This document shows, one piece after another, positions 34,359 through 58,793 of a stretch of 64,000 nt of DNA. Positions within the stretch are counted from its first letter, which is position 1, and every line of letters begins with the position of its first letter. This DNA is from Gammaproteobacteria bacterium (GTDB lineage: Bacteria > Pseudomonadota > Gammaproteobacteria > Ga0077536), in NCBI GenBank assembly GCA_021773835.1, contig JAJFJQ010000073.1, positions 310,001 through 374,000 on the forward strand, given 5' to 3'. The notes under the pieces were generated by a model that did not search any database, was not told the origin of the DNA, and saw nothing but the letters and a program-made list of their open reading frames with translations. A program made the position numbers and the translations under genes.

Positions 34359-34488
34359 TGTATTGGTAATCCACAGGTTGTGCGCAGGGAACAATCGCGC
34401 ATTGATATGGGTTATGAGTTGTCGAGGTAGTCGTTGCTACGCGTAAGATGATTCAGCAACGCGTTGCCTTTTGAGTCGCGCGGCCGAG

Positions 34489-35610: not shown

Positions 35611-35620
35611 GGATACCTTG

Positions 35621-37114
35621 TCAGCGCATTACAAAGGGGTTAGGAACGTCACTTGCAGTCGAGATCCAAACACTTTTCGTTTGTAAATACTCGCGAATGG
35701 CCTCGATACCGTTTTCGCGACCTAATCCACTCTGCTTGTAACCGCCAAACGGCGACATGAAACTCACCGCGCGGTAGGTGTTGACCCAGACGGTACCGGC
35801 ACGGATTGCATTCGATACTTTTATTGCTCGTTTTATCGACTGCGTCCAAACGCCGGCGGCGAGCCCAAACGCAATATCATTGGCGATAGCGATGGCCTCG
35901 TCGTCTTCGTCGAAGCGGATAATTGACAACACAGGCCCAAACACCTCTTCTTGGGCGATGCGCATGTTATTTGTCACGCCGCCAAATATTGTCGGTTCAA
36001 TAAAATATTGACTGTCGCCACACTCGGGCCGGTCGGTTGCTGGGCCACCACCGAGGAGCACCTCGGCGCCTTCATCTTTGGCAACTTGAACGTACTGTAG
36101 GATCTTCTCGTATTGAGGCGGTGTTGTAACCGGACCGACTTGGGTGTCCCGCTGCATCGGATCGCCCATCTTCGCGGTAGCGGCGAAATCGACCAACTTG
36201 CGGACAAATTCGTCGTAGATGCCGTTTTGTACGAGTAACCGTGAGCCGGCGATACAGGTTTGACCGGTTGCGGCGAAGATGCCGGAGATTGCACCCTTCA
36301 CGGCGTCGTCCAGATCAGCGTCGTCGAAAATGATATTTGGCGATTTCCCACCGAGTTCCAGCGTACACTTTTTGAGGCCGGCTGCCGCGGATTGGTAAAC
36401 GCGCGCGCCACTATCGGAGCCGCCGGTGAATGCCACCTTCGCAACTTTTGGATGTTCGACCAACGCAGCGCCAACTTCTGCGCCGTAGCCGGTTACAACA
36501 TTGACTACCCCAGGCGGAAATCCAGCCTCGGCGAAGAGTTCGACGAAGCGCAACGTTGAGGTTGAGGTAAACTCCGACGGCTTGATGACGACCGTGTTGC
36601 CGGCTGCCAGTGCTGGGGCTAGCTTGAAGGTAAGCAGCATCAAAGGTGAGTTCCAGGGGGTTATGGCAACGACAACCCCAAGTGGTTCTTGGCGCGTATA
36701 ATTGAAGATATCCGGCTTGTCGATCGGCAAAACAGACCCCTCGATCTTGTCCGCAAGCCCACCAAAGTAGTAATACCATTGTGGGATGTAGCCACACTGC
36801 GGTCCCATCTCGCTGATTAACTTACCGTTGTCGCGGACTTCATATTCGGCCAGCTCATCGGCGTGCTCGGCCAGAAGATCACCGAAGCGACGGAGTAGGG
36901 CGCCGCGTTGGGTAGCGCTCATTGCCGGCCACTCACCAGTCGTAAACGCACCGTAGGCCGCTTCTATCGCGTCGTTGGCATCGGCTTCATTACAGCGGGC
37001 AACTTCTGCCCAAACCTTTGATGTATAGGGATTTACCGTTTCGAAATAGGTATTGGTTCGTGGTGGCACGGAAGCCCCATTGATATAGGCATTGAATTTT
37101 GGCAGGTCGGCCAT
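35621..37114 (-). CDS. NAD(P)-dependent aldehyde dehydrogenase
   Basis: A 497-residue ALDH superfamily enzyme. It has ITPWNSPLMLLTFKLAPALAAGNTVVIKPSE, the catalytic Glu in LELGGKSPN (about residue 260) and the nucleophilic Cys in ATGQTCIAGSR (about residue 294), then EEVFGPVLS and the C-terminal FGGYKQSGLGRENG. The open frame runs a few codons further; ATG 37114 has a GGAG ribosome site and starts a normal N-terminus. It would oxidise an aldehyde to the acid, which the adjacent CoA-transferase could activate. Confidence 0.92.
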   Translation of the reverse strand: MADLPKFNAYINGASVPPRTNTYFETVNPYTSKVWAEVARCNEADANDAIEAAYGAFTTGEWPAMSATQRGALLRRFGDLLAEHADELAEYEVRDNGKLISEMGPQCGYIPQWYYYFGGLADKIEGSVLPIDKPDIFNYTRQEPLGVVVAITPWNSPLMLLTFKLAPALAAGNTVVIKPSEFTSTSTLRFVELFAEAGFPPGVVNVVTGYGAEVGAALVEHPKVAKVAFTGGSDSGARVYQSAAAGLKKCTLELGGKSPNIIFDDADLDDAVKGAISGIFAATGQTCIAGSRLLVQNGIYDEFVRKLVDFAATAKMGDPMQRDTQVGPVTTPPQYEKILQYVQVAKDEGAEVLLGGGPATDRPECGDSQYFIEPTIFGGVTNNMRIAQEEVFGPVLSIIRFDEDDEAIAIANDIAFGLAAGVWTQSIKRAIKVSNAIRAGTVWVNTYRAVSFMSPFGGYKQSGLGRENGIEAIREYLQTKSVWISTASDVPNPFVMR

Positions 37115-37137
37115 CGGTAGCTGCTCCGGGTAGGTAA

Positions 37138-38301
37138 TCAATAAGATCGGGGTAGATCTAGTTCGCGCTCGGCGATGTACGACAATATTAAGTTGGTCGA
37201 AATCGGTGCGATGCGGTAGAGACGCGCCTCGCGAAATTTCCGCTCGACATCGTATTCCTCAGCGATGCCGAATCCGCCGAAGGTTTGCACACAGACATCT
37301 GCCGCTTCCCACGAGGCCTCAGAGGCCAGCATTTTCGCCATGTTGGCCTCGGTCCCGCAGGGTTCGCCGCGGTCGTATAGCTCGGCCGCTTTGCGTAAGG
37401 TCAATTCAGCGGCGACGGTTTGTGCATACGCACGTGCTATCGGGAATTGTATGCCCTGGTTTTGTCCGATGGGGCGTCCAAATACTTTTCGCTCCCGTGC
37501 GTAATCGCTTGCCTTTTTTATAAACCAACGCGCGTCGCCAATGCATTCGGCCGCGATCAGAATGCGCTCTGCGTTCATTCCAGAGAGGATGTATTTAAAA
37601 CCCTTACCTTCTTCACCGATCAAGCTATCGGCGGGTATCGACAAGTCGTCGTAGAAAATTTCTGTGGTCGAGTGATTGATCATGGTACGAATGGGATTAA
37701 TCGTCATGCCGTTGCCCAAGGCATCACGCATATCGATGAGAAATACCGAAAGTCCCTCGGATCGCTTTTTGACTTGGTCTTTCGGAGTTGTACGAGCGAG
37801 CAATACCATTAGATCGGAATGTTCCGCGCGCGATGTCCAAACTTTCTGCCCGTTGACCAAATAACCGTCGCCACTGCGCACCGCCATCGTAGAAATGCTG
37901 GTGGTATCCGTACCGGCGGTCGGCTCGGTAACGCCAAAGGCTTGTAGGCGCAGGTCTCCGCTCGCGATACCCGGGAGATAGCGCTGTTTCTGTTCGTCGC
38001 TACCATGACGCAATACCGTGCCCATGGTGTACATCTGTGCGTGGCAAGCGCCGGCGTTACCCCCAAATTCGTGAATTGCTGTAAGGATTTCGGCACCCAT
38101 CGATAACGGCAAGCCGCTGCCGCCGTATTCCTCTGGAATCAATGAGGCCAAAAGGCCAAGTTCAGTTAGCGCGTTGACAAATTCAGTCGGATATTTTCTA
38201 GCGCGGTCTTTTTCACGCCAATACTCGCCTGGATAGTCGTCGCATACTTTTTTTACGGTATCCCTGAGCTGGGATATCAATTCGATATTTTCGGTCGACA
38301 T
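37138..38301 (-). CDS. Acyl-CoA dehydrogenase family protein with atypical active site
   Basis: A 387-residue ACAD with the FAD-binding segments FGVTEPTAGTDTTSIST and VNGQKVWTSRA, and ARERKVFGRPIGQNQGIQF. At the C-terminus, where MCAD-type enzymes have the catalytic Glu in YEGT-x-EI, this protein reads RIAPISTNLILSYIAE, so the usual base is absent. Many proteobacterial ACADs have this variant, and the real base may lie elsewhere. It starts the ACAD-ALDH-CoA-transferase-MaoC unit. Its start codon lies 12 bases past a terminator-like hairpin that ends the upstream hydrolase gene. Confidence 0.9.
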   Translation of the reverse strand: MSTENIELISQLRDTVKKVCDDYPGEYWREKDRARKYPTEFVNALTELGLLASLIPEEYGGSGLPLSMGAEILTAIHEFGGNAGACHAQMYTMGTVLRHGSDEQKQRYLPGIASGDLRLQAFGVTEPTAGTDTTSISTMAVRSGDGYLVNGQKVWTSRAEHSDLMVLLARTTPKDQVKKRSEGLSVFLIDMRDALGNGMTINPIRTMINHSTTEIFYDDLSIPADSLIGEEGKGFKYILSGMNAERILIAAECIGDARWFIKKASDYARERKVFGRPIGQNQGIQFPIARAYAQTVAAELTLRKAAELYDRGEPCGTEANMAKMLASEASWEAADVCVQTFGGFGIAEEYDVERKFREARLYRIAPISTNLILSYIAERELDLPRSY

Positions 38302-41576: not shown

Positions 41577-42647
41577 ATGGATTTTGGTTTCGTATTTATG
41601 GGTGATTGTCACATCCATCCTGAGGTCAAATACGCAGAGGACCATGGCTTTTCCCATGCTTGGCTATATGACACGCAAATGCTTGGCAGTGAAGTCTATG
41701 CTGCGCTCGCGCTATGTGCCGATAGGACTAGTACGATCAAGCTCGGCCCTGGGGTGACCAATCCAGCGTCCCGTATTGCACCGTTGAGCGCTTGTGGCAT
41801 GGCAACGATTAATTCGTTGGCACCAGGTCGGGCCATCATGGGCATTGGGACGGGCAACACAACCCGACGGACAATGGGTATGCCGGCGGCCCGAGTAGCT
41901 GAATTAGAAGACCACGTTCGTGTCTGTCGGGATCTTTTTGCCGGTGAAATCACCGACTACAGCGAAGGCGACCGGCACCGAAAAATTAAGTTTCTAAATC
42001 CGGACCTGGGCTTCATCAATATAGAAAATAAGATCCCGATCTACATCTCTGCGAGCGGACCTCGGGTTGCGCAACTCGCTGGTCGCGTTGCCGACGGCGT
42101 TATCTTGTTTGGTGCGGTGAGTCCCTCGATCGTCAAATGGATGATCGGTCACGTGCGTAAGGGTGCAGAAGAGGCAGGTCGTAATCCCGACGATGTCTAC
42201 GTATTGTCGATGACGGCTTTTTATCTCACCAACAGCGACGAAGAAATTGAGACCCGCGCGGTGCGAGAGGCTGTCGGGCCAATGGTTGCCTCAAGTAGTA
42301 ATATCTTCGCGCTTTCGTGCCATAAAGACCCATCTGCGCTACCTGCTGATCTGCGCGATGAGCTAATGGAGTTTGTTGGCGTTTACCGCGAACCAGATGC
42401 GCCAGTCGAAACGCGCCACCTAAAGCTGTACAGCGGCTATTTGCAGCATCTTAAAGACGAGCATGAAGCGTTGATGACGAAGAAAATCATTCAAGCAACG
42501 ACTCTTACGGGTACCAAACAAGAAGTCATAGGGATGATCGAAGAGATGCGGGATGCCGGGGTTAACCAGATCGCTATCCAGCCGATCCTCGAGACTCGCT
42601 CGGTCGTGGACCAGGTTGCCAAGGAGATCATGCCGAGCTTTAAATAA
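41577..42647 (+). CDS. LLM-class oxidoreductase, probably F420-dependent (Mer-like)
   Basis: A 356-residue luciferase-family TIM barrel. YAEDHGFSHAWLYDTQMLG, IKLGPGVTNPASRIAPLSACGMATINSLAPGRAIMGIGTGNTTRR (about residues 57-100) and PIYISASGPRVAQLAGRVADGVILFGAV are typical of the F420-dependent methylene-H4MPT reductase-like branch. No flavin reductase is adjacent, while F420 biosynthesis genes are 11 kb away, so F420H2 use is likely but inferred. It follows the SCP2/hydrolase module on the same strand. Confidence 0.88.
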   Translation: MDFGFVFMGDCHIHPEVKYAEDHGFSHAWLYDTQMLGSEVYAALALCADRTSTIKLGPGVTNPASRIAPLSACGMATINSLAPGRAIMGIGTGNTTRRTMGMPAARVAELEDHVRVCRDLFAGEITDYSEGDRHRKIKFLNPDLGFINIENKIPIYISASGPRVAQLAGRVADGVILFGAVSPSIVKWMIGHVRKGAEEAGRNPDDVYVLSMTAFYLTNSDEEIETRAVREAVGPMVASSSNIFALSCHKDPSALPADLRDELMEFVGVYREPDAPVETRHLKLYSGYLQHLKDEHEALMTKKIIQATTLTGTKQEVIGMIEEMRDAGVNQIAIQPILETRSVVDQVAKEIMPSFK

Positions 42648-46350: not shown

Positions 46351-47154
46351 TTATTTGCCCTTGAACTCAGGGGTGCGCTTATCAAAAAAGGCGTTTACCG
46401 CTTCCATGTGATCGTCCGTATTCTGCACGATGACCTGCATCGCCGCCGACATCTCCATGATCGTGTCGAAGGTGGAGTTCATGCCGTCGCGCATCAATCG
46501 TTTTGTCATACGCAGCGCCTGCGGCGGCTGCTGAACAATACGTTTAGCGAGTTCATTTGCCGACTCCATTAAGCTAGCTGCGGGTACGATGTCCGAGACC
46601 AAGCCCCAGGACTTTGCTGTTTCTGCGTCCACCACATCGCCGGTAAAAAATAGACGTGCCGCATTCGACCAGCCGATCACACGCGGCAGCAACCATGAAC
46701 CGCCATCGCCCGGGATCAGTCCAACCTTGAGGAAGGTGGCACCAAATTTCGCGTTGTCTGCCGCGATACGAATGTCACAGGTGCAACCGACATCATTACC
46801 CAGTCCGATAGCTGGGCCGTTAATGGCGCCGATTGTTGGCACCTCAATATCCCATAAGGATCGAATGACCCGATGAATGTTTTTGCGGTAGGCCTTATCA
46901 CGCATCTCCAATGGCGAGGCACCGAATGAGCCTTCACGGTCGCGCATGGCCTTGAGGTTGCCGCCTGCTGAAAACGCCTTACCGGCACCGGTAAGAATGA
47001 CACAACGGACGTCGTCGTCGTTGTTTATGCGCTCGGCGGCCTCCGCGAAATTCTGCCCGTCTCCATTCATACCGAGTGGATTGCGGTCATCTGGGCGGTT
47101 CATCGTCAAGGTGACGATGTGGCCATTTTTTTCAAACAATAGATCGTTATTCAT
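46351..47154 (-). CDS. Enoyl-CoA hydratase/isomerase family protein
   Basis: A 267-residue crotonase: LTMNRPDDRNPLG, oxyanion hole GKAFSAGGNLKAM (about residues 58-70) and AINGPAIGLGNDVGCTCDIRIA, with GATFLKVGLIPGDGGSWLLPR (Glu replaced by Gly-Asp-Gly near the second catalytic position, so the exact reaction is uncertain). The ATG follows GGAAGAG. It is the last gene of the long minus-strand operon that starts at 53654. Confidence 0.92.
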   Translation of the reverse strand: MNNDLLFEKNGHIVTLTMNRPDDRNPLGMNGDGQNFAEAAERINNDDDVRCVILTGAGKAFSAGGNLKAMRDREGSFGASPLEMRDKAYRKNIHRVIRSLWDIEVPTIGAINGPAIGLGNDVGCTCDIRIAADNAKFGATFLKVGLIPGDGGSWLLPRVIGWSNAARLFFTGDVVDAETAKSWGLVSDIVPAASLMESANELAKRIVQQPPQALRMTKRLMRDGMNSTFDTIMEMSAAMQVIVQNTDDHMEAVNAFFDKRTPEFKGK

Positions 47155-47249: not shown

Positions 47250-48296
47250 TCAGTTGGTGATGTAACCCCATATATCATCGCCGCCTTGCTGAGTGGCGAT
47301 GTGCCCGAGGTATTCCGCCCATTCGCCGCTGCCACCAAATTCCGCACGCCAGGCCCACAGCCGACGGGTTAAGAAGTGGAGTCCGTACTCATAGGTAAAA
47401 CCAATAGCACCATGAACCTGATGTCCAATGCGCGTGATTGGTTCGACCGCGTCGCTCGCTCGACACTTCGCGGCCGCAATTTCAAATTTAGCGTCGCGTC
47501 CATCCGTCGCGATCCCATGGATATCCATGGTGCGAAATGCACTAGCCGCCATTGCCTCTACCGTTGCCAACGAACCTGCCATTACCGCTAGCTGATGTTG
47601 AATCGCTTGGAAGCGTGACAAGGTGCGACCAAATTGCTCGCGTTCCCCGACATATTGCACGCCGATCTCCAAACAACGGGAACTCGCACCGGCGATTTGT
47701 GCGCTACGCAGTAACGCGCACAACCACCGAATTGAATCGGCGGGGAGGTTAATGGGGGCGCGTTGGACCACTGGTGTTTGATTGAATGTGACAGTATCGC
47801 GCGGATCTTGACCGAGGTTTTCCTCGCCGGTTATGTCAACACCGTCGCGCGCGACCAGGACCAGCTCTTGTGCCGTCGTAATGCCAATAAAGTAATCGGC
47901 GTCCCGCCCCCAAGGTACGCGTGAAATTTGCGCGGTCAAAGTATCTCCAGAGATATTGCTAGCGGGCACAGCATGCGGGAGTATTCCTGCGGCGCCGGCC
48001 GGCAATCCGATTGATGCACGCTCGGCGAGCCAGCCTGCAAGGATCGCTTCCGGTACCGGTAATGGTAAGCAGCAGTATCCGCACCGGCGGACCACCACAT
48101 AGGCGTCCGCCCAGGTGCCGCTCATGCCACCACGCGTTTCATCTACCAAGACCTGGGGGATACCAAGTTCACTAATTGTGTCCCACAATTCTTGCGGCCA
48201 GCCGGTCTCCTCAACCGAGCTTAGAAACTCATTTGTTACTTGCTCGGCGAAAACGCGGGCGACACTTTCTTCAAGGATGTTGCGTAGTTCACTCAT
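47250..48296 (-). CDS. Acyl-CoA dehydrogenase-like subunit (short, 348 residues)
   Basis: An ACAD of 348 residues, about 40 shorter than usual, overlapping the previous ACAD by four bases (ATGA). It has GTLSRFQAIQHQLAVMAGSLATVEAMA and RIGHQVHGAIGFTYEYGLHFLTRRLWAWR, but the TEP-x-x-G-S FAD/substrate segment and the YEGT-x-EI catalytic Glu are not evident. Paired long and short ACAD genes like this form alpha2-beta2 heterotetramers in steroid-side-chain degradation, so this is likely the partner of the 48293 gene. Confidence 0.86.
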   Translation of the reverse strand: MSELRNILEESVARVFAEQVTNEFLSSVEETGWPQELWDTISELGIPQVLVDETRGGMSGTWADAYVVVRRCGYCCLPLPVPEAILAGWLAERASIGLPAGAAGILPHAVPASNISGDTLTAQISRVPWGRDADYFIGITTAQELVLVARDGVDITGEENLGQDPRDTVTFNQTPVVQRAPINLPADSIRWLCALLRSAQIAGASSRCLEIGVQYVGEREQFGRTLSRFQAIQHQLAVMAGSLATVEAMAASAFRTMDIHGIATDGRDAKFEIAAAKCRASDAVEPITRIGHQVHGAIGFTYEYGLHFLTRRLWAWRAEFGGSGEWAEYLGHIATQQGGDDIWGYITN

Positions 48297-49456
48297 CGCA
48301 ATCCAAGGCCTCTGGCAATGATCCCGCGTAATATCTCTGGCGTCCCGCCGCGCAGCGAGAACGACGGCGCAAGCTGTACAAGGTTTCCGAGTACCTGCTG
48401 GTAGTCAATGCCGTGACCGGCCAGCGTTGGTTCCAGGTCAACGATTTCTTGCGCCAACTCCGGCAGTCCTTGCTCGAAACTACATCCAACGTCTTTGACA
48501 ACGGAAGCTTGTAGCCCTGGATCCTTACCGTCATTAAGCATCCCGGCGACACTTAGGGACATATTGCGTAGCGCTACTAGCAGGGCTATCTGTGAGCCTA
48601 TTTTTCGTAACGATGCGGGCGATGCGTCATCTTTGATGACATCGATAAGACTGCTCAGCAAGACGTAGCAAGAGAGATAGCGCTCGGGTCCGCTACGCTC
48701 GAAGGCGAGTTCTTCCACAACCTGTTTCCAACCCGCGCCTTCGGTGCCAATCAAGGCATCGTGGGGTATTACCGCATCTTCGAAAAACACTTCGTTGAAC
48801 TGTGCACGGCCGGTTAGATCTTTGATTGGACGGCAGGTGATCCCGCTGGTTGGTAATTCAATTAGAAATTGCGATAAACCCTCGTGCCGATTGTCGGTGG
48901 CAGGTGAGGTCCGCACCAACGCGATCATGTAATTTGCTTGGTGAGCGTGTGACGTCCATATTTTTTGTCCGTTGACAACCCAACCGTCGTCGCTACGTTC
49001 GGCCCGCGTACGTAACGACGCGAGATCCGATCCAGAATTCGGTTCGCTCATGCCGATGCAGAAACACGCCTCTCCCGCCGTAATCTTCGGCAGTATCGTT
49101 CGCTTCTGCTCCTCCGTGCCGTAGCGTGCGAGTAGCGGACCGCTTTGCCGGTCGGCGATCCAATGAAATCCACTCGGCGCGCCAGCCGCCAGTACCTCCT
49201 CGACCACCACATACCGTTCGAGTGGGCCACGTTCATGGCCACCGTAGGCTTTAGGCAAAGTCATGCCGAGCCAACCGCGCTCGCCGAGCTTGCGTGAAAA
49301 TGCCGCGTCGTAGGCATCCCAGCTGTTACTTCTATGTACAGCACTAAAACTCGTGCACTCAGCACGCAGGAAAGTACGCACCTCCGCCCGTAACGATGCT
49401 AGGGTCTGGGGAAGTTCGTAAGGCTCGAAGCGTAGCGCGTCAGTCTGTGCAGTCAT
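48293..49456 (-). CDS. Acyl-CoA dehydrogenase, large subunit
   Basis: A 387-residue ACAD with ACFCIGMSEPNSGSDLASLRTRAE, VNGQKIWTSHAHQANYM, and RAQFNEVFFEDAVIPHDALIG. The C-terminus FSLRGGTPEILRGIIARGLGLR places Gly-Gly-Thr-Pro-Glu-Ile in the active-site loop. It overlaps the APH-like gene upstream (ATGA) and the short ACAD downstream (ATGA), indicating tight translational coupling. It probably forms a heteromeric dehydrogenase with the short partner. Confidence 0.91.
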   Translation of the reverse strand: MTAQTDALRFEPYELPQTLASLRAEVRTFLRAECTSFSAVHRSNSWDAYDAAFSRKLGERGWLGMTLPKAYGGHERGPLERYVVVEEVLAAGAPSGFHWIADRQSGPLLARYGTEEQKRTILPKITAGEACFCIGMSEPNSGSDLASLRTRAERSDDGWVVNGQKIWTSHAHQANYMIALVRTSPATDNRHEGLSQFLIELPTSGITCRPIKDLTGRAQFNEVFFEDAVIPHDALIGTEGAGWKQVVEELAFERSGPERYLSCYVLLSSLIDVIKDDASPASLRKIGSQIALLVALRNMSLSVAGMLNDGKDPGLQASVVKDVGCSFEQGLPELAQEIVDLEPTLAGHGIDYQQVLGNLVQLAPSFSLRGGTPEILRGIIARGLGLR

Positions 49457-50526
49457 AATCCCGCCTTTCTCGCGTACGCTATGGCAGTTGCAGCAAACGT
49501 ACGTACGATAGTTGCCTCTTTGGGCGCCTCTGGGTTTGCAGCCGTCCCTTCTTGGACGCGCTTAATGATCCCTTGATATATCGCGGCCATGCGCCAAACA
49601 GTATAGGCACGATAGTAATCGAGATTGGATATGTGGCTGCGACCAGTCAATTCACAGTAACGTGCCGTGTATTCGGCCTCCGTAGGTATTCCTAAAGCGG
49701 GCAGGTCCAAGCCGGCGAGGCTGCTAACCCGCTCCTTTACTTGCGGTAGCAACCAGGGGCACAAATGATAGGTAAAATCACCTAACGGGTGCCCAATGGT
49801 GGCGAGCTCCCAGTCTAACACCGCAACTACTCGCGATTCGCCAGGGTGGAAGATCATGTTGTCCATGCGAAAGTCGCCATGAATTAGGCTGACCGCATCA
49901 TCTGCCGGAATGTTTTTTGGCAACCACTCATTGAGCAGATCCATGTCGTCGATTTTCTCCGTCTCAGAGGCGACGTAGGTCTTACCCCAACGGTGGATCT
50001 GCCTCGCGAAGTAATCGGTCGTTTTGCCAAAACCATCAAGTCCTATCGCTTGGTAGTCGATCGACTGAAATTTTGCCAACGTGCTGATCTTTGCGTCATA
50101 GATTGCTGCACGTTCTGCAGGGGATTGATCAGGCAGTGACATATCCCAAAAGACTCGGCCTTCGACCATCTCCATTACGTAGAAAATTGTGCCAACCACC
50201 GTTGTGTCTTCGCACAATAGTAGAGCTTGGGGCACCGGAAAGTCGGTCATGTTCAATGCAGAAATAATGCGAAATTCGCGATCGACGGCGTGCGCAGACG
50301 GTAGCAACTCACCCGGCGGCTTACGCCTGAGCACATAATGCCGTGACGGGGTTATCAGCTGGTAGGTGGGGTTAGATTGCCCGCCTTTAAAGCGCCTGAC
50401 TTCCAGCGGACCTTCGAAGCCGTCGATATGCTGTTTGAGGTACTTCGCCAGGCGCGACTCGTCGAACTGTAGATGTTGCTCGACTTCCTTCGTGCCTGAG
50501 AATGCTGCTTGTTTACTAGAAGTCAT
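49453..50526 (-). CDS. Aminoglycoside-phosphotransferase-fold kinase (ACAD10/LvaA-like)
   Basis: A 357-residue APH-fold protein: RRFKGGQSNPTYQLIT (glycine loop), HYVLRRKPPGELLPSAHAVDREFRI, the catalytic loop LIHGDFRMDNMIFHP (about residues 215-229) and metal-binding VLDWELATIGHPLGDFTYHL (about 237-256). This subgroup is fused to ACADs in eukaryotic ACAD10/11 and is related to LvaA, which phosphorylates 4-hydroxyacyl-CoA in levulinate catabolism. Overlap with two ACAD genes supports such a role; aminoglycoside resistance is unlikely. Confidence 0.88.
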   Translation of the reverse strand: MTSSKQAAFSGTKEVEQHLQFDESRLAKYLKQHIDGFEGPLEVRRFKGGQSNPTYQLITPSRHYVLRRKPPGELLPSAHAVDREFRIISALNMTDFPVPQALLLCEDTTVVGTIFYVMEMVEGRVFWDMSLPDQSPAERAAIYDAKISTLAKFQSIDYQAIGLDGFGKTTDYFARQIHRWGKTYVASETEKIDDMDLLNEWLPKNIPADDAVSLIHGDFRMDNMIFHPGESRVVAVLDWELATIGHPLGDFTYHLCPWLLPQVKERVSSLAGLDLPALGIPTEAEYTARYCELTGRSHISNLDYYRAYTVWRMAAIYQGIIKRVQEGTAANPEAPKEATIVRTFAATAIAYARKAGL

Positions 50527-50612: not shown

Positions 50613-51824
50613 CTACCCAGCTACGACACCACTATCGTGGAGTTTTCCAATCTCCGTGTCACCTAAGCCGAGCAAATCGGCGAGTATCTCATCGGTATGT
50701 TGACCTAAGTGGGGCGCTGGCGCAGCGGGCTGCCGCTCAACTGCGGAAAAGGACATTGGTTGCCCCGGGACGAGATAACGGCCGAGGTTGGGTTGTTCAA
50801 CCATGCTGAAAATAGGATTGTCCTCGGAGACGTCGATGTCGTCTTCAACCAGCTCGCGAACCGTTTGGTAGGGTCCCCAGCAGCAGCCGTTTTCATCGAG
50901 TGCACTTTTAATTTGGGTGAACATCGTTGCTCCGGTCCAGCGCTCGACAATCTCACAAATTTCGTCTCGCGCAGCAAATCGATCGCCTTCGCGCGAAAAG
51001 TCTAATTTGAGCTTGGCCTCTAACGTATCCATTTCAGCACCGAATCCTCCCGCACGCTGTAAGCCGGCCCATTGCTTTGGCGTGATGGCGATTATCATCA
51101 TGCGTTTGCCATCGGCGCTGACAAAGTCGCGTCCAAAAGCGCCATATAAATGGTTACCGTAGCGCGGTCGCTCGGCCCCGTTGATTGAGACTTCGCCGAT
51201 AAAACCAAGATGGCCCATCGTCGCCAAGGCGCAATCGGCAAGCGACATCTCGATCTTTTGACCTTCCCCAGTAAGGCGCCGATGACGTTCAGCCGCCAAA
51301 ATACTTAGCGCTGCCATGTAGGCAGCGATGTTGTCCCATGCCGGCAGTACGTGATTTACCGGTCGCTCGTCATCGATAGGCCCCGTGATATTGGGATAGC
51401 CAACCTTTGCGTTGACGGTGTAGTCGAGCGCCGTCCCGCCATGCCGATCGCCGACGATCGCGAGTTGGATCAAGTCTTGCCGATGCGATTTTAAGGACTC
51501 GTAGGACAGCCAACCCTTGGCCGGCAAATTAGTGGAGAAGATTCCGCCGGCCTCGCCGCCGGTAGTGATGAGCTGAGTCACTAGTTCACGCCCGCGGTCC
51601 GACTTTAAATCGACCGCGAAAGAGCGTTTACCTTTATTGAGATCCGCCCAATAGAAACTATGGTTGTTGTCGGTGACCGGCCAACGATGGTAATCGACCC
51701 CGCCGTGAATATTATCGAAGCGGATAACATCCGCGCCCAACTGTGCCAAAGTCATGCCACACATAGGCGCGGCTATAAAAGCCGAACCTTCAATGATGCG
51801 GAGCCCGCTTAGTATCTTTTGCAT
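50613..51824 (-). CDS. CoA-transferase-fold protein, 2-methylfumaryl-CoA isomerase (Mct)-like
   Basis: A 403-residue family III CoA-transferase-fold protein. Its whole length recalls Chloroflexus Mct (mesaconyl-CoA C1-C4 CoA transferase): GLRIIEGSAFIAAPMCGMTLAQLGADVIRFD, WADLNKGKRSFAVDL, IFSTNLPAKGWLSYESLKSHRQDL, DYTVNAKVGYPNITGP, NHVLPAWD, NHLYGAFGRDF and VEQPNLGRYLVPGQP. The similarity is recalled, not computed. Mct moves CoA within one molecule; here the substrate may be a related dicarboxylic CoA ester. It lies between the MaoC and APH-like genes in a long operon. Confidence 0.83.
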   Translation of the reverse strand: MQKILSGLRIIEGSAFIAAPMCGMTLAQLGADVIRFDNIHGGVDYHRWPVTDNNHSFYWADLNKGKRSFAVDLKSDRGRELVTQLITTGGEAGGIFSTNLPAKGWLSYESLKSHRQDLIQLAIVGDRHGGTALDYTVNAKVGYPNITGPIDDERPVNHVLPAWDNIAAYMAALSILAAERHRRLTGEGQKIEMSLADCALATMGHLGFIGEVSINGAERPRYGNHLYGAFGRDFVSADGKRMMIIAITPKQWAGLQRAGGFGAEMDTLEAKLKLDFSREGDRFAARDEICEIVERWTGATMFTQIKSALDENGCCWGPYQTVRELVEDDIDVSEDNPIFSMVEQPNLGRYLVPGQPMSFSAVERQPAAPAPHLGQHTDEILADLLGLGDTEIGKLHDSGVVAG

Positions 51825-51873: not shown

Positions 51874-52731
51874 CTAGTTACTCAATTCTACGTGTCCATT
51901 ATTTAACACTGCCACGTTGCGTTCGTGCGCGAAGCTGCGGAAATAGATGTCTGTGCCATCCTGCCAGATCTCAGTGCGCAGTGTTTCACCCGGTAGGAAT
52001 GGCGCAGAAAAGCGTATGCTGATCGATTTAATGCGGTTCGGATCGTAGGCGCAGCAGGTCTTCAGGATGGCGTGTTGTGCAACACCCATGGTCGATCGGC
52101 CATGAAGTATTGGACGTTCGAATCCGGCAGCGTTGGCGATCGCGGGATCGGCGTGTAAGGGATTCATGTCGCCACATAGCCGGTACAGTAGCGCTTGTTG
52201 CGGGATCGTGGGCAGCTTACACACAGCGTCGGGCTCACGGTCGGGAACCTCCGCCGGTTTGGGTCTGGTTTGTGGATTGCCTCCGCATCCGCCGTCGCCG
52301 CGAGCAAGCGAATTCGAGTAAACCGTTGCGAAAAGCTTGCCATCGCTCTCAGCACGAACTTCCTTGCGTGTGTAGATAAAAACACCCTTATCGGGTCCGC
52401 GGTCCACGATATCGTCGATAACGGTCTCGCCAACCATCGTACCTGCCGGCGGCAACGGGCTATGCACAATCAGGTGCTCTTCGGCGTGCAGCACCTTCTG
52501 CCATTCAACTTCGTACTGTGGATCTTTGAGCCAAAACCCGGGGTAGCCCAATACGAGATTCATCGTCGGCAAGGTCAGGATGTCTTTTTCGTAGACGAAC
52601 CTCAATTGATCTAGGTCTGTCGGATCGGCGCCGAAGCCCAAGCCTAGTGCGTATAGGATGCTGTCTTCGGTGCGATAGGTCGATTCATTTCGCGCAATCA
52701 CTTTGCCTATAATTTTATCTGGATCAATCAA
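51874..52731 (-). CDS. MaoC-family 2-enoyl-CoA hydratase (hydratase-2 type)
   Basis: A 285-residue two-domain hydratase. The N-terminal part (TEDSILYALGLGFG, then VIDDIVDRGPDKGVFIYTRKEV) is the non-catalytic hotdog; the C-terminal part has the hydratase-2 motif YRLCGDMNPLHADPAIANAAGFERPILHGRSTMG with Asp/His (about residues 206-239). It hydrates trans-2-enoyl-CoA to the (R)-3-hydroxy form. The only sensible start is a TTG (52729-52731), 35 bases after the LLM gene stop, with GAGGGGA upstream. Confidence 0.9.
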   Translation of the reverse strand: MIDPDKIIGKVIARNESTYRTEDSILYALGLGFGADPTDLDQLRFVYEKDILTLPTMNLVLGYPGFWLKDPQYEVEWQKVLHAEEHLIVHSPLPPAGTMVGETVIDDIVDRGPDKGVFIYTRKEVRAESDGKLFATVYSNSLARGDGGCGGNPQTRPKPAEVPDREPDAVCKLPTIPQQALLYRLCGDMNPLHADPAIANAAGFERPILHGRSTMGVAQHAILKTCCAYDPNRIKSISIRFSAPFLPGETLRTEIWQDGTDIYFRSFAHERNVAVLNNGHVELSN

Positions 52732-52766: not shown

Positions 52767-53654
52767 CTAGGCGGCTTCTGCTTCTATGAGTTCGTCGGCC
52801 AAGCCTTTTAACTCATCCAATACGGCATCTAGCTCGGTTGCCATGATCCACACGATAACTTCATCAACGCCGGCCTGTTCTGCCTCCGTTATTTCGGCGG
52901 CGGTGCGACTCATACCTTCGGTTGCCATCTGTGCGATAGAAATCGATTTCGGATCGCGCCCGGCCTCCGTGCACAGTTCGTTTAGCCGTTCACGCCCTTT
53001 GGCCAGCTCACTGAAATCGTTGGTTAATGGAACCCAACCGTCTCCCCATTTAGCGACGCGTTGCAGTACCCGCGGCGAACCAATACTGCCGAAATAAATT
53101 GGCGGATAAGGATCCTGTGCAGGTTTTGGGTAACAGCGCACGGGTGGAAATGAATAGTACTTGCCAGCGTACCCGGCAGAGTCATTCGTCCATAGTGCCT
53201 TCATTACTTCTACGCATTCGCGTGTCTGGGTCCAGCGATGATCAAAATCGACCCCCAAGATTTCGCTCTCTTCACGATTCCAGCCGGCGCCGATACCGAA
53301 ATTGACGCGTCCGCCGCTGTAATGGTCAAGGGAGGCAACTTCGTTGGCGAGAATCAGCGGATTGTGTTCCGGCACAAGGCAGATCGCCGTGCCCAGCCGT
53401 AGCGTAGACGTTACCGCGGAAGCACGCGCCAAGGCGATCCACGGATCTGGCATTTGCCATAGATAATCCGGTGGTTCAACCAGCTGGGCTTCGAGATCCC
53501 CGGCGTAATTCGAACGGAATTCCACGGGTAAGATCGCGTGTTCTGGCACCCAGTAGGAGGTAAAGCCTAGGTCTTCGGCAGCTCGAGCGACTATCGCCGG
53601 ATCGGCTTTCATGTCGGGCACGGTATGGAACAGGCCTATATTACAGGTCATCAT
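52767..53654 (-). CDS. LLM-class oxidoreductase, probable F420-dependent
   Basis: A 295-residue luciferase-family protein of the short F420-type (TIGR03619-like, from memory). ARAAEDLGFTSYWVPEHAILP, LRLGTAICLVPEHNPLILANEVASLDHYSGGRVNFGIGAGWNREE and PIYFGSIGSPRVLQRVAKWGDGWVPL are visible. The frame opens 24 codons earlier; ATG 53654 follows GAGG. It heads the catabolic operon and is divergent from the cofE operon across 237 bases, the strongest reason to call it F420-dependent. Confidence 0.87.
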   Translation of the reverse strand: MMTCNIGLFHTVPDMKADPAIVARAAEDLGFTSYWVPEHAILPVEFRSNYAGDLEAQLVEPPDYLWQMPDPWIALARASAVTSTLRLGTAICLVPEHNPLILANEVASLDHYSGGRVNFGIGAGWNREESEILGVDFDHRWTQTRECVEVMKALWTNDSAGYAGKYYSFPPVRCYPKPAQDPYPPIYFGSIGSPRVLQRVAKWGDGWVPLTNDFSELAKGRERLNELCTEAGRDPKSISIAQMATEGMSRTAAEITEAEQAGVDEVIVWIMATELDAVLDELKGLADELIEAEAA

Positions 53655-53891
53655 GCTTACCTCACGCTGGATTGATAAGGCGACCCTAAATCGTGCAACT
53701 CTATTCGGTTGTTTGAGTATGGGCACCGATTGGCCGCGATGCGGACGGAATCGATCTTACGCTAGATCGGGAATGCCGCAAACCAATATGGCCGGTGGTC
53801 AGAACATCAAAACAGACAGTAGGACTACGGGCAACGCAAAATTCCCGTTAAACTAATCCCCCTTCGCCATAGCGTCCGCCTCTACATTCCT
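53655..53891. promoter_or_regulatory. Divergent control region of the catabolic and F420 operons
   Basis: Only 237 bases separate the LLM start (minus) from the cofE start (plus), so both promoters must lie here. A six-base inverted repeat CGATCT-TACGCT-AGATCG at 53752-53769 is present, but repeats this short arise by chance. On the minus strand TTGCAC followed 15 bases later by TATCAA is a weak promoter candidate. No riboswitch-like structure was recognised. Confidence 0.4.
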
Positions 53892-54674
53892 ATGAACGTC
53901 CCGACTCCGCCGATTAGCAATCTGCAATTTCTGGTTATTCCCAACATCCCACTGATTAATGCGGGGGACCGCCTAGTCGAGATCCTGCTGCCTGCAATCG
54001 AGGCCTCCGATGTGCAGTTAATCGAAGGAGACATTTTGGTGGTGGCACAAAAAATCGTGTCTAAGGCGGAAGGCCGTCAGGTTTCGTTGAGCTCGGTCAT
54101 GCCGTCGCCCGAAGCCCAGCGTCTGGCACACGAAACGGAAAAAGAGCCCGCGCTGTGTCAACTCATTTTGGATGAGTCGGCTGAAATACTGCGCAAGAAA
54201 CCGGGTGTTATAATCGTTCGCCATCGGCTCGGGCATGTAGGCGCGAATGCGGGGATCGATCAATCGAATATCGAACACGGTGACGGCGATTCCGCGCTGT
54301 TGTTACCACTCGATCCGGATCAAAGTGCGCGCACGCTGCGTGACCAATTTTTTAAACAAACGGGTAAGCGCTTGGGGATCCTGATTTCCGACAGCATGAA
54401 TCGGCCATGGCGATTAGGCACAACGGGTAGCGCGATCGGATGTGCAGCCGTACAGGTGATCGACGATCTCCGTGGCGGCAAGGACATGTTTGGTCGCGAA
54501 CTAAAAGTAGCGATGGTTAACCGCGCTGATTCGTTGGCCGCCGCCGCGACCTTATTAATGGGCGAAACTATCGAAGGTACACCGCTGGTTGTCGTTCGCG
54601 GATTACCGCCATCGGACAGCTGCGAGACTGCCGCCGATATGATCCGGCCCCTTGAGGACGATCTTTTCCGTTGA
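53892..54674 (+). CDS. cofE: Coenzyme F420-0:L-glutamate ligase (stand-alone)
   Basis: Adds gamma-linked glutamates to F420-0 using GTP. It has 260 residues, like archaeal CofE and unlike actinobacterial FbiB, which carries an extra C-terminal nitroreductase-like domain of about 200 residues. Family segments: EGDILVVAQKIVSKAEGR (about residues 44-61), VIIVRHRLGHVGANAGIDQSNIE, LGILISDSMNRPWRLGTTGSAIGCA and ELKVAMVNRADSLAAAATLLMGE. Its stop overlaps the cofD TTG start by three bases (TTGA). It heads the F420 operon. Confidence 0.95.
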   Translation: MNVPTPPISNLQFLVIPNIPLINAGDRLVEILLPAIEASDVQLIEGDILVVAQKIVSKAEGRQVSLSSVMPSPEAQRLAHETEKEPALCQLILDESAEILRKKPGVIIVRHRLGHVGANAGIDQSNIEHGDGDSALLLPLDPDQSARTLRDQFFKQTGKRLGILISDSMNRPWRLGTTGSAIGCAAVQVIDDLRGGKDMFGRELKVAMVNRADSLAAAATLLMGETIEGTPLVVVRGLPPSDSCETAADMIRPLEDDLFR

Positions 54675-55636
54675 AAGCTAAGCCGGAGAAATATCTCGCG
54701 ATCACCGGCGGAGTCGGTGGCGCCAAGCTTTGCCTTGGTTTTTCACACCTGTTGGACGCCGATCAGGTAAGCTTTGTCGTCAATACCGGCGATGATTTCG
54801 AACACCTTGGTCTGCATATTTCTCCGGATCTGGATACGCTAACCTACACCTTGGCAGGCCTCAGTAACCCGGAGCTCGGATGGGGCCGGCAAGGTGAGAG
54901 CTGGAACTTTATCGCGGCACTTGATGCGCTTGGTGGTGACACTTGGTTTAACTTAGGCGACGCCGATCTTGCCACACATGTCGTGCGAACGCAGATGCTG
55001 AAAACGGGTGCAAGCTTGACCGATGTCACGGCCAGTCTGACTCGAAAGCTTGGCATCGATCATCAAGTACTGCCGGTGAGCGATGATCCGGTCCGCACAA
55101 TCGTCCACACGCAACTCGGCCCGCTCGCTTTCCAACATTATTTCGTTCGCGAACGATGTGAGCCGGCGGTTCGCGGTTTCGAATTTGACGGTAGTGGTAG
55201 CGCTAAATTGAGTGCTCAGCTGAAAGCTGTGCTCGCCGACCCAGACCTTGCCGGAGTAGTCATCTGCCCGTCGAATCCGTTTGTCAGTATCGACCCGATG
55301 CTGGCTGTGCCCGCGTTCACTCAAGCTCTGCGGGCACTCGAAGTCCCGATTGTCGCGGTGTCGCCAATTGTCGGTGGAGAGGCAATCAAAGGACCAACGG
55401 CTAAAATGATGCAGGAGCTGTCGGTCCCCAGGAGTGCGTTCGCCGTCGCGGAGCATTACACCGATTTAATCGATGGCTTCATTATGGATCAACAAGATGC
55501 AGCGTTAAGCAATAGCGTCGCGGGCCTTAATATAGAGACTATCGTTGCCCAGACGGTCATGGTAACTTTAGCCGATCGGATCGATCTGGCCCGCACGGCC
55601 ATTGACTTTTTACGCCGTCTAAGGGGTGGGGGATAG
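54671..55636 (+). CDS. cofD: 2-phospho-L-lactate transferase (F420-0 / dehydro-F420-0 synthase)
   Basis: Joins the activated phospho-side chain from CofC to the deazaflavin Fo. It has 321 residues, the normal size, with KYLAITGGVGGAKLCLGFSHLLD at residues 7-29, NTGDDFEHLGLHISPDLDTLTYTLAGLSNPELGWGRQGESW, WFNLGDADLATHVVRTQML and ICPSNPFVSIDPML. The start is TTG, overlapping the cofE stop; no ATG lies nearby before the conserved N-terminus. It is followed 8 bases later by cofC. Confidence 0.95.
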   Translation: MKAKPEKYLAITGGVGGAKLCLGFSHLLDADQVSFVVNTGDDFEHLGLHISPDLDTLTYTLAGLSNPELGWGRQGESWNFIAALDALGGDTWFNLGDADLATHVVRTQMLKTGASLTDVTASLTRKLGIDHQVLPVSDDPVRTIVHTQLGPLAFQHYFVRERCEPAVRGFEFDGSGSAKLSAQLKAVLADPDLAGVVICPSNPFVSIDPMLAVPAFTQALRALEVPIVAVSPIVGGEAIKGPTAKMMQELSVPRSAFAVAEHYTDLIDGFIMDQQDAALSNSVAGLNIETIVAQTVMVTLADRIDLARTAIDFLRRLRGGG

Positions 55637-55644
55637 CTTAGAAA

Positions 55645-56322
55645 ATGTGGGCCGTTGTTCCAAGCAAGCAGTTCGGTGTCGCTAAGAAGCGGCTTGCTGC
55701 ATTGTTGAGTGAAGCAGAGCGGGTTGCGCTGGCGGAAGTCATGCTCAGCGATGTCCTCGCGGCGCTCCACAGCAGCACCGAGGTGAGCGGTATTATTGTC
55801 GTGTCGAAAGAGCCGGCTGCGCAGCGGCTCGCCGAGCGTTACGACGCTTACTTCGTGCCCGAAGCGCAAAATGACCTTTCTCTTGCGGTTGCCCAAGGCG
55901 GGGCATTCGCGGCGACTCTCGGTGGGCGAGCAATGCTGATGGTCCCCGGAGACGTACCGCTTGTAAGCGCGATGGAGATCGATCAGCTGATCCGTCTGCA
56001 TGGTCACGGTGCGGGTCTTACCATGGTGCCCGATCGGGATCGGACCGGAACCAATGGCTTGGTCGTTTCTCCAATCGATTTGATCGCGTTTTCTTACGGA
56101 ATCGACAGTTTCAATATCCATGCTGAAGCTGCTCGCGATACCGGTAGTCCGGTCCAAATCTTAGAGCTTGATGGACTGTCTTTGGATATCGACACGCCGG
56201 AAGACGTCCGTGCCTTGATGGCCTATGAGCAGCCCTCGGCAACACTCGACTATCTTGATGAAATCAATGTGGTATCACGGCTGCCCGGTCGGCATAATGT
56301 CGGCCATGCAGTTGCCGGCTGA
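55645..56322 (+). CDS. cofC: 2-phospho-L-lactate guanylyltransferase family (F420 side-chain activation)
   Basis: A 225-residue nucleotidyltransferase: MWAVVPSKQFGVAKKRLAALLS at the N-terminus (GTP-binding lysines), LMVPGDVPLVS as the metal site (about residues 98-108), MVPDRDRTGTNGLVVSPID, and LDIDTPEDVRAL. Homologues activate 2-phospholactate, phosphoenolpyruvate or 3-phosphoglycerate; which one is used here cannot be read from the sequence. It lies between cofD and fbiC, 14 bases before the latter. Confidence 0.92.
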   Translation: MWAVVPSKQFGVAKKRLAALLSEAERVALAEVMLSDVLAALHSSTEVSGIIVVSKEPAAQRLAERYDAYFVPEAQNDLSLAVAQGGAFAATLGGRAMLMVPGDVPLVSAMEIDQLIRLHGHGAGLTMVPDRDRTGTNGLVVSPIDLIAFSYGIDSFNIHAEAARDTGSPVQILELDGLSLDIDTPEDVRALMAYEQPSATLDYLDEINVVSRLPGRHNVGHAVAG

Positions 56323-56336
56323 GGCCCTCCTTACCC

Positions 56337-58793
56337 ATGTCTGAATTGGATGCGATCCTAGATCGTTCGTTACACGGCGGCTTGCCCTCGACGGCCGAGG
56401 CGCGGGTACTTGCAGACACGGCGCTCAGCGCGCCCTTGCTGCCGGTGGCGTCAACGCTGCGTGACCGTGGCTTCGCGAATCTCATCACCTACTCGAAGAA
56501 GGTGTTTATCCCGCTGACCCACCTGTGCCGGGATGTTTGCCACTATTGCACTTTTGCGCAGGCGCCGAAAAAGGTCGTCGCGCCCTACCTGACGATCGAT
56601 CAGGTCCTTGAAACCACGGCCGCCGCCGCCGAACTGGGGTGCAAGGAGGTCCTGTTTACCTTAGGCGAAAAACCGGAGTTGCGTTACAAAACAGCGCGCG
56701 ACGCCTTGTCGGCCATGGGTTACGAGTCGACCACGGATTATCTACACGACGTGGCTAAAGCGGTATTTGACGAAACTGGATTGTTGCCGCATCTCAATCC
56801 GGGCACCTTGAGCCTGTCCGAACTTGAGCGCTTGCGGCAAGTCGCGCCTAGCATGGGGATCATGCTCGAATCCGCAGCCGAACGACTTACGCAAAAAGGC
56901 ATGCCGCATTACGGATCCCCGGACAAGGACCCGCAAGTCCGCTTGCAAACCTTGGCCGATGCCGGACGCGCCAGCATACCGTTCACCACCGGCATCTTGA
57001 TTGGGATCGGCGAGACGCGTCAGGAACGGGTTGAATCGCTACTCGCGATTCGGGATGTGCATGAAACGTATGGTCACGTTCAAGAGATCATCATTCAAAA
57101 CTTCCGCGCCAAAGTCGGCACGAAGATGGTTAACGCACCCGAGCCGGATCTGGAAGAAATGGTTTGGACCCTCGCTGTCGCCAGGATACTGTTTGGCGCG
57201 ACGATGAGCATCCAGGCGCCGCCGAATCTGAGTCCGGGTGTTCTGCCACGGTTGGTTGAAGCCGGCATCAACGATTGGGGCGGCGTGTCCCCGGTTACGC
57301 CGGATTTTGTGAATCCGGAAGCGCCGTGGCCTGAATTGGAGCGGCTCGCAAGCGAAACGGCGGATGCCGGGAAATACTTGCACGAACGCCTTACTGTTTA
57401 TCCCGACTTCGCTGTCGATCGGACGCGTTGGTTAGATGAAAAATTTCAGACCCCGATTCTGCAAGCGATTGACGCTATCGGCATGCCTCGAATCGACTCA
57501 TGGAGTCCAGGCGAGGCAGAGCCACCGCCACGCGATATCATCGACTTAGTCCGAAAATCGACACCGCTCGTATCTACAGATGTAGCGGCCATCATTGATC
57601 GTGCGCAGGACGGGGCTGATCTCGCGCATGGCGAAATAGAACGGTTGTTTAACGCCCGCGGCGATGATTTCGCCGCAGTGTGTCAAGCCGCCGATCAATT
57701 GCGGTCGCAATGCAATGGCGATGTCGTCACCTATGTTGTCAACCGCAACATCAACTACACCAATGTGTGTTACTTCAAATGCCAATTCTGCGCTTTCTCG
57801 AAAGGGAAACTGAGTGAGAATTTGCGCGGGAAGCCCTATGACTTGAGTGACAACGAAATCCAACGCCGTGTCCACGAGGCGTGGGAGCGGGGCGCGACGG
57901 AAGTCTGTATGCAAGGCGGGATCCATCCCCAATACACGGGCCAGACCTATCTCGACATCGTGCACACGGTAAAAACAGCGGTGCCCGAGATGCATGTGCA
58001 CGCATTTTCACCGCTTGAAGTATGGCAAGGTGCCCAGACCGCTGGTTTGCCGCTTGAGTCGTTTTTGTCCGAGCTCAAAGAGGCCGGGCTCGGTACCTTA
58101 CCCGGCACAGCAGCCGAGGTTCTCGACGACGAAGTGCGTGCGGTTTTGTGCCCCGATAAGATCAACACCGAGCAGTGGCTGTCAGTCATGCGGGCGGCGC
58201 ATACAGTCGGTTTCAATACGACCGCGACCATAATGTATGGTCACATTGACCAACCCCATAATTGGGCGCGTCATTTAATCAATGTTCGTGATCTGCAAAA
58301 AGAGACTGGCGGGTTCACCGAATTTGTACCGCTTCCGTTCGTACATATGGAGGCGCCTCTGTATCTCAAAGGCAAGGCGCGCAAAGGACCGACCTTTCGC
58401 GAGGCGATATTGATGCATGCCGTCGCACGATTGGCCTTAAACCCGTATATCACAAACATCCAGGCGTCGTGGGTGAAAATGGGCCACGCCGGCGTGATGG
58501 CCTGCCTGAATGCAGGGGTAAACGATCTCGGTGGTACCTTAATGAATGAGAGCATCACCCGCGCGGCCGGTTCCGCCCATGGTCAGGAGACATCGCCAGA
58601 GGCAATGATCGCGATGATCGAGTCGGCCGAGCGCACGCCGCGACAACGTTCGACGACCTATGGCGATATCAGTTTGGAGCGCCATCGCGCGAGCTTCCGT
58701 GCAGCGGATCTGATCGCGATAGAAAATACGCCGGCGCGGAAATACGAACGCACTGAGCGCCGCGAACTCGTTCGTCCAGGTATCCGGGCATAG
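56337..58793 (+). CDS. fbiC: Fo synthase, fused CofG-CofH radical SAM enzyme
   Basis: An 818-residue bifunctional enzyme that builds the 5-deazaflavin Fo from tyrosine and the pyrimidine intermediate of riboflavin synthesis. Two radical SAM clusters are visible: C64-x3-C68-x2-C71 in the CofG half and C478-x3-C482-x2-C485 in the CofH half. Both halves have intact TIM-barrel patterns (LFTLGEKPELRYKTARDALS; EVCMQGGIHPQYTGQTYLDI). The fused form is typical of Actinobacteria and of F420-producing bacteria generally, whereas archaea encode two proteins. It ends the cofE-D-C-fbiC operon. Confidence 0.97.
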   Translation: MSELDAILDRSLHGGLPSTAEARVLADTALSAPLLPVASTLRDRGFANLITYSKKVFIPLTHLCRDVCHYCTFAQAPKKVVAPYLTIDQVLETTAAAAELGCKEVLFTLGEKPELRYKTARDALSAMGYESTTDYLHDVAKAVFDETGLLPHLNPGTLSLSELERLRQVAPSMGIMLESAAERLTQKGMPHYGSPDKDPQVRLQTLADAGRASIPFTTGILIGIGETRQERVESLLAIRDVHETYGHVQEIIIQNFRAKVGTKMVNAPEPDLEEMVWTLAVARILFGATMSIQAPPNLSPGVLPRLVEAGINDWGGVSPVTPDFVNPEAPWPELERLASETADAGKYLHERLTVYPDFAVDRTRWLDEKFQTPILQAIDAIGMPRIDSWSPGEAEPPPRDIIDLVRKSTPLVSTDVAAIIDRAQDGADLAHGEIERLFNARGDDFAAVCQAADQLRSQCNGDVVTYVVNRNINYTNVCYFKCQFCAFSKGKLSENLRGKPYDLSDNEIQRRVHEAWERGATEVCMQGGIHPQYTGQTYLDIVHTVKTAVPEMHVHAFSPLEVWQGAQTAGLPLESFLSELKEAGLGTLPGTAAEVLDDEVRAVLCPDKINTEQWLSVMRAAHTVGFNTTATIMYGHIDQPHNWARHLINVRDLQKETGGFTEFVPLPFVHMEAPLYLKGKARKGPTFREAILMHAVARLALNPYITNIQASWVKMGHAGVMACLNAGVNDLGGTLMNESITRAAGSAHGQETSPEAMIAMIESAERTPRQRSTTYGDISLERHRASFRAADLIAIENTPARKYERTERRELVRPGIRA

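Follow-up and report, generated by a model that had tools for sequence, protein, structure and literature searches.

The 64,000-nucleotide stretch analysed here (the window; positions 310,001 to 374,000 of contig JAJFJQ010000073.1, assembly GCA_021773835.1, from a gammaproteobacterium) carries three overlapping minus-strand genes, at 47250-50526, which encode an APH-fold kinase and two acyl-CoA dehydrogenases (ACADs), here called alpha and beta. In our preferred reading, to which we assign a probability of about one half, the kinase would act like ACAD11 and LvaA and phosphorylate a hydroxyacyl-CoA on its hydroxyl, C4 being the most likely position. Alpha and beta would form an alpha2beta2 enzyme for ordinary alpha,beta-dehydrogenation, its substrate a bulky or branched acyl-CoA of the same pathway. 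This enzyme would not eliminate the phosphate; that step would fall to one or other of two ACADs of HCMR type (LvaC/ACAD11-like), acting in trans from other contigs of the genome, C68 and C69. The computed results behind this are the grouping and residues of the kinase, the heteromer type of the ACAD pair, its lack of the eliminase signature, the occurrence of the same alpha active site in relatives without a kinase, and the presence of HCMR ACADs elsewhere. The C4 position, the CoA-ester substrate, the trans partnership and the bulky substrate of alpha/beta are what we infer in addition.

The first point to note is that the three genes are real. A sequence-only reading of the window had described an APH-like kinase overlapping two ACADs by ATGA at both junctions, and this was confirmed: Pfam finds the APH and acyl-CoA dehydrogenase domains, the coordinates give a 4-nt overlap at the kinase-alpha and at the alpha-beta junction, and, because the downstream genes start with ATG, the overlap sequence is ATGA.

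The kinase is 42% identical to the kinase domain of mouse ACAD11 (E 6e-81) and 51% identical to PDB 3dxp (E 4e-116). We built a tree of 62 kinases, and a second one omitting three rows with long branches (L130 and L131, which are paralogs from the window's own genome, and L202). A phylogeny was the check proposed with the sequence-only reading and, with ACAD11 as the reference, the kinase falls with it rather than away from it, in a 48-row group supported at 100/99 without the three long rows and at 95/83 with all 62. Fifteen kinases linked to alpha/beta pairs, from several genera, form a single group (100/99 in the 62-kinase tree), nested within a group of 32 rows (99/98); the remaining members, where they have a recognised ACAD neighbour, have one of HCMR type. 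Some of the deeper forks inside the 48-row group are weak (84/45 and 85/73) and do not fix the exact sister group. In a class sample of 229 genomes, 28 had a match to the kinase (36 matches), and 29 kinase loci were fetched. An ACAD with HCMR and DGP motifs lay within 1.5 kb at 15 of these, a homologue lacking these motifs at two, an alpha/beta pair at two (both in the window's family) and neither at ten. Taken together, the nesting and the neighbour counts make a single change of partner the simplest history; the kinase appears to have joined this operon a single time, its source being kinases that mostly pair with HCMR ACADs.

All 15 alpha/beta-linked kinases keep equivalents of ACAD11 D220, N225 and R176 and of the helix-C Arg-Glu pair, residues whose roles are described in passages of PMC12440821. 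The HGDxxxxN motif and downstream Asp of the APH fold are likewise present in 15/15; in the window kinase the conserved residues are D218, N223, D238, R83-E84 and the CoA-anchoring R175. We therefore predict, from its sequence, a hydroxyacyl-CoA kinase of ACAD11's group. The clade also carries changes of its own: His is replaced by Gln154 and Phe by Trp311 in 15/15, and the Gln at position 183 is lost. These may reflect an altered substrate, and they favour the idea that the kinase acts on another alcohol, such as a tertiary or ring hydroxyl, with or without CoA, alpha/beta then working on the side chain that results. Steroid side chains are a known target of such alpha/beta pairs (in part of PMC11153573), and a reversible, phosphotransferase-type 25-hydroxysteroid kinase is described in part of PMC8449060. 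We consider this possible but unlikely: R175 and the helix-C Arg are kept, and no steroid-specific family scored above its cut-off among the catabolic genes of the window, the whole genome not having been searched for steroid genes.

The gene set is conserved. Relatives of beta were sought in 58 genomes, 47 of which gave a match at E<=0.001, the strong matches lying nearly all within the window's own family. The order kinase-alpha-beta-hydratase, in which the fourth gene is a crotonase-family enoyl-CoA hydratase, is found in nearly every fetched family locus whose contig extends that far; for L023 and for L025, the fetched stretch contains three of these four genes. Of the 29 loci with both alpha and beta (the window's locus, L006, counted and L001 left out), 27 have the two overlapping, a recurrence that speaks against chance. 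Among the same loci, kinase and alpha overlap only in the window's genus (L006 and L008), and other genera have a short gap. Of 500 loci confirmed when named genomes were scanned, the best 80 were examined for content. Seventeen contain the kinase, every time directly upstream of alpha; five family loci end before its place, and 53 of the other 58 have ≥600 bases of sequence upstream of alpha, none with a kinase there. At one locus, L068, a 25% kinase match lies ∼3 kb away. Nor was a kinase found within 1.5 kb at 13 loci with beta relatives in 12 genomes from outside the family (299-genome phylum sample). Kinase-less pairs are thus the rule outside the window's family, and their flanks share no function (isocitrate/isopropylmalate dehydrogenase, MmgE/PrpD, SDR and a histidine-kinase-type ATPase were seen). 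No relative of the beta subunit was found in viral contigs.

This prevalence of kinase-less pairs outside the family would suit mere co-location, with the kinase serving an unrelated reaction in an operon that gathers catabolic genes without a shared pathway. We regard that as improbable, given that the kinase stands directly upstream of alpha at 17/17 kinase-bearing loci among the best 80, and that these kinases are one clade across several genera. Two side observations concern the distribution. At L207 and L208 (G052 C2), from another family, ∼16 kb separate an alpha-beta-hydratase set from a kinase that is sister to the alpha/beta-linked clade, an arrangement that is perhaps an intermediate stage. 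Four loci titled as Klebsiella pneumoniae metagenome-assembled genomes (L043, L047, L049 and L055) carry the cluster; in the tree, the kinase of L047 falls with those of the uncultured family, and the titles look misassigned.

The two ACADs look like the subunits of an alpha2beta2 heteromer of the ChsE4-ChsE5 (FadE26-FadE27) or Tcur3483-Tcur3481 kind, with complementary losses. By sequence, the best solved structures for alpha are ChsE4 (4x28_A) and Tcur3483, and a fold search with the beta model (pLDDT 90.7) ranks Tcur3481 and ChsE5 chains first; the alpha model matches Tcur3483, ChsE4, LCAD and others at about equal score. Alpha retains ERSGPERYL and LRGGT in 13/13 sequences and the FAD-ADP motifs in 0/13, while beta retains FQAxQ and QxHGxxG in 17/17 and RxxFG in 15/17. 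The motifs missing from alpha and present in beta bind the ADP moiety of FAD in homotetrameric ACADs. Alpha Glu253 aligns with ChsE4 residue 247, which we take to be the catalytic base of that enzyme. Beta lacks both the catalytic-loop Glu and the helix-G Glu, and so has no catalytic Glu motif, bearing out the earlier remark that the second ACAD is short and seems to lack the usual active-site loop; the heteromer suggested on that basis also fits. Accordingly, alpha would be expected to provide the active site, whose base would be Glu253, and to contribute the isoalloxazine side of FAD, with beta contributing the ADP side. The subunits are adjacent and unequal, with a helix-G catalytic Glu in alpha only, consistent with the account in parts of PMC11153573 of ChsE4-ChsE5-type enzymes, in which alpha holds the catalytic Glu and FAD is shared between the subunits. 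The window pair differs from these steroid enzymes in being only about 20-30% identical to them and in its link to a kinase and F420 genes.

The sequence-only reading had gone further, placing kinase and ACADs in one phosphorylation route. The kinase half of that proposal holds, in so far as the ACAD11 domain falls in one group with the window kinase, together with bacterial kinases whose genes overlap or adjoin those of LvaC-type ACADs; a part for alpha/beta in phospho-elimination is not supported. Elimination of the ACAD11 type requires R626, H634, R637 and D753 (as set out in passages of PMC12440821). With alpha R254 set by hand on the family-wide R631 (the MAFFT alignment gapped this helix), R626, H634 and R637 correspond to E249, P257 and Y260 of alpha, and D753, in the loop, to G370. 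The HCMR motif, its upstream Arg and the catalytic Asp are missing from both alpha and beta, which, judged on these residues, are not phosphate-eliminating enzymes of the LvaC/ACAD11 type. Furthermore, alpha E253, R254, G256, P257, R259, G370 and G371 are invariant across 18 kinase-linked and 67 kinase-less rows (rows with <330 aligned residues, and family rows ending before the kinase, were left out). An active site that is the same with or without a kinase speaks against chemistry tied to the kinase, and since the pair is widespread without one, alpha/beta probably performs ordinary dehydrogenation.

For these two reasons, the missing residues and the unchanged active site in kinase-less relatives, we rejected cis phospho-elimination as the leading idea. 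Elimination by the heteromer itself, through an active site unlike that of ACAD11 and in cis with the overlapping kinase, draws on the gene order held across the family and on the closest outside kinases, which likewise overlap or adjoin eliminating-type ACADs, but the missing equivalents, the 67 kinase-less rows and the 0/13 loci with a kinase in the phylum sample leave it only a small chance of being correct. Smaller still is the chance we give to an F420-linked pathway, in a largely uncultured family of gammaproteobacteria, where the hydroxyl is marked for removal by an ACAD11-type kinase and the phospho-intermediate is processed by a heteromeric, non-HCMR ACAD; if this is true, phosphate-assisted dehydroxylation of acyl-CoAs would have been solved a second time, independently.

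Returning to elimination in trans, the window's genome encodes two HCMR ACADs, at C68:25899-27149 and C69:44435-45511, each with HHCMR and ADGPD. Such an ACAD is present at E<=1e-60 in 33 of 35 other genomes of the family, the two without it being 57% and 62% complete, and HCMR and DGP occur in all 30 fetched relatives (best per genome, own included). Among these, L155, from another family, adjoins a kinase; none of the window's type was found within the ≤1.5 kb shown on each side at the 28 family loci, nor in the 18-19 kb stretches around the C68 and C69 genes. The best hint that kinase, alpha/beta and HCMR ACAD share one pathway comes from a plasmid of Sulfitobacter pontiacus, which holds a kinase (48% identity), an alpha/beta-type pair and an HCMR ACAD within ∼22 kb. 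The HCMR ACAD, ∼14 kb on from the kinase and pair, is 74% identical to that on C68; the pair, at 35% and 24% identity to the window's alpha and beta, is of the same type but hardly orthologous. On C68 the HCMR ACAD gene follows a cytochrome P450 gene (L132 7337-10150), a possible source of the hydroxyl group; on C69 it adjoins, on the same strand, another ACAD-like gene and an HpcH/HpaI aldolase/lyase gene (L133 8430-11704).

Several points weigh against the combination of kinase, ordinary alpha/beta dehydrogenation and trans elimination. For the window's family, the evidence for a partnership in trans is co-occurrence in one genome, not linkage. A further kinase of this genome, on C12 (34% identity), falls in the second group of kinases associated with HCMR ACADs (95/73). 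That kinase could be the one that serves the HCMR ACADs, so that the window kinase is not the sole candidate for them. The three sites changed in the alpha/beta-linked clade are nearly fixed in HCMR-partnered kinases, C4 specificity is not readable from sequence, and the alpha model is moderately confident (pLDDT 74.9).

Genes of the conserved unit and its surroundings in the window (strand in the third column)
Feature	Position	Strand	Details
APH-fold kinase, ACAD11/LvaA-type, predicted hydroxyacyl-CoA kinase	49453-50526	-	357 aa; Pfam APH 180 bits
ACAD alpha, predicted catalytic subunit of alpha2beta2 acyl-CoA dehydrogenase, putative catalytic Glu253	48293-49456	-	387 aa; Pfam acyl-CoA dehydrogenase domains
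ACAD beta, predicted non-catalytic, FAD-ADP-side subunit	47250-48296	-	348 aa; Pfam acyl-CoA dehydrogenase domains
Crotonase-family enoyl-CoA hydratase, fourth gene of conserved unit	46351-47154	-	NF006699 397 bits, cut-off 354
CoA-transferase III, Mct-like	50613-51824	-	TIGR04253 558 bits, cut-off 725; upstream of kinase, conserved
MaoC / hydratase-2-like protein	51874-52731	-	found in part of relatives
F420-dependent LLM oxidoreductase	52767-53726	-	TIGR03619 244 bits, cut-off 167; some relatives only
Divergent F420 biosynthesis genes cofE, cofD, cofC and fused CofG/H	53892-58793	+	Pfam F420_ligase, CofD, CofC, Radical_SAM and CofH_C

The minus-strand genes are transcribed in the order LLM oxidoreductase, MaoC-type protein, Mct-like protein, kinase, alpha, beta, crotonase. 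The Mct-like and F420-type neighbours that the sequence-only reading had called an unusual combination are real, and the combination is conserved; the former falls below the curated cut-off of the '2-methylfumaryl-CoA isomerase' model and the latter passes its own. The divergent block includes a fused radical-SAM CofG/H (FbiC-like) protein of 818 aa, and cofE is divergent upstream in all 12 kinase-bearing loci, among the best 80 of 500, that reach far enough. F420 may be a cofactor of this catabolism. A second LLM gene lies at 41577-42647, and a second block at 33336-38301 encodes a mesaconyl-CoA hydratase-like protein, a CoA-transferase III, an aldehyde dehydrogenase and an ACAD; parts of it recur close to the cluster in relatives.

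Between cofE and Mct, 8 of the 12 relatives' loci extending that far have an ACAD match. Six were translated, and the one compared with solved structures, from L099, is a methylsuccinyl-CoA dehydrogenase-like (Mcd-like) protein that matches 8ciw (E 1e-171). The clusters of some relatives thereby resemble the pseudomonad itaconate/methylsuccinate cluster, for which the passages available from PMC12290011 mention no kinase. A methylsuccinyl-CoA route as the shared function was set aside because the window's genome has no close Mcd-like copy, the best being 34% identical.

Kinase and two-part ACAD are each of a known kind. Compared with mammalian ACAD11/ACAD10 (passages of PMC11342911 and PMC12440821) and the LvaA-LvaC pair of the Pseudomonas putida levulinate pathway, the kinase is in ACAD11's group with the same catalytic residues, whereas the ACADs lack the eliminase signature and form two unequal subunits instead of one homotetrameric chain. 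Plasmid-borne kinase and HCMR-ACAD pairs of Novosphingobium, Sphingobium, Haematobacter, Blastomonas and Acinetobacter have overlapping or adjacent genes and 48-53% kinase identity, but their ACAD has HCMR and DGP and the window's has neither. What is new is the lasting partnership of such a kinase with a two-part ACAD beside genes for cofactor F420; an open-access literature search gave no title or abstract describing this kind of kinase paired with a heteromeric ACAD.

Kinases of this kind help mammals to burn 4-hydroxy fatty acids, and two-part ACADs like this one serve to oxidise bulky molecules, cholesterol among them. It was only in 2024-2025 that the mammalian route for 4-hydroxy acids was elucidated (in the parts of PMC11342911 and PMC12440821 that describe it), and little is known of how widely it occurs in bacteria or of its substrates there. 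The cluster shows that the kinase is separable from its usual eliminating ACAD and has been retained, family-wide, with a two-part ACAD and F420 genes. It supplies concrete proteins for asking whether kinase and eliminase work from separate loci, and which substrate ties this chemistry to F420.

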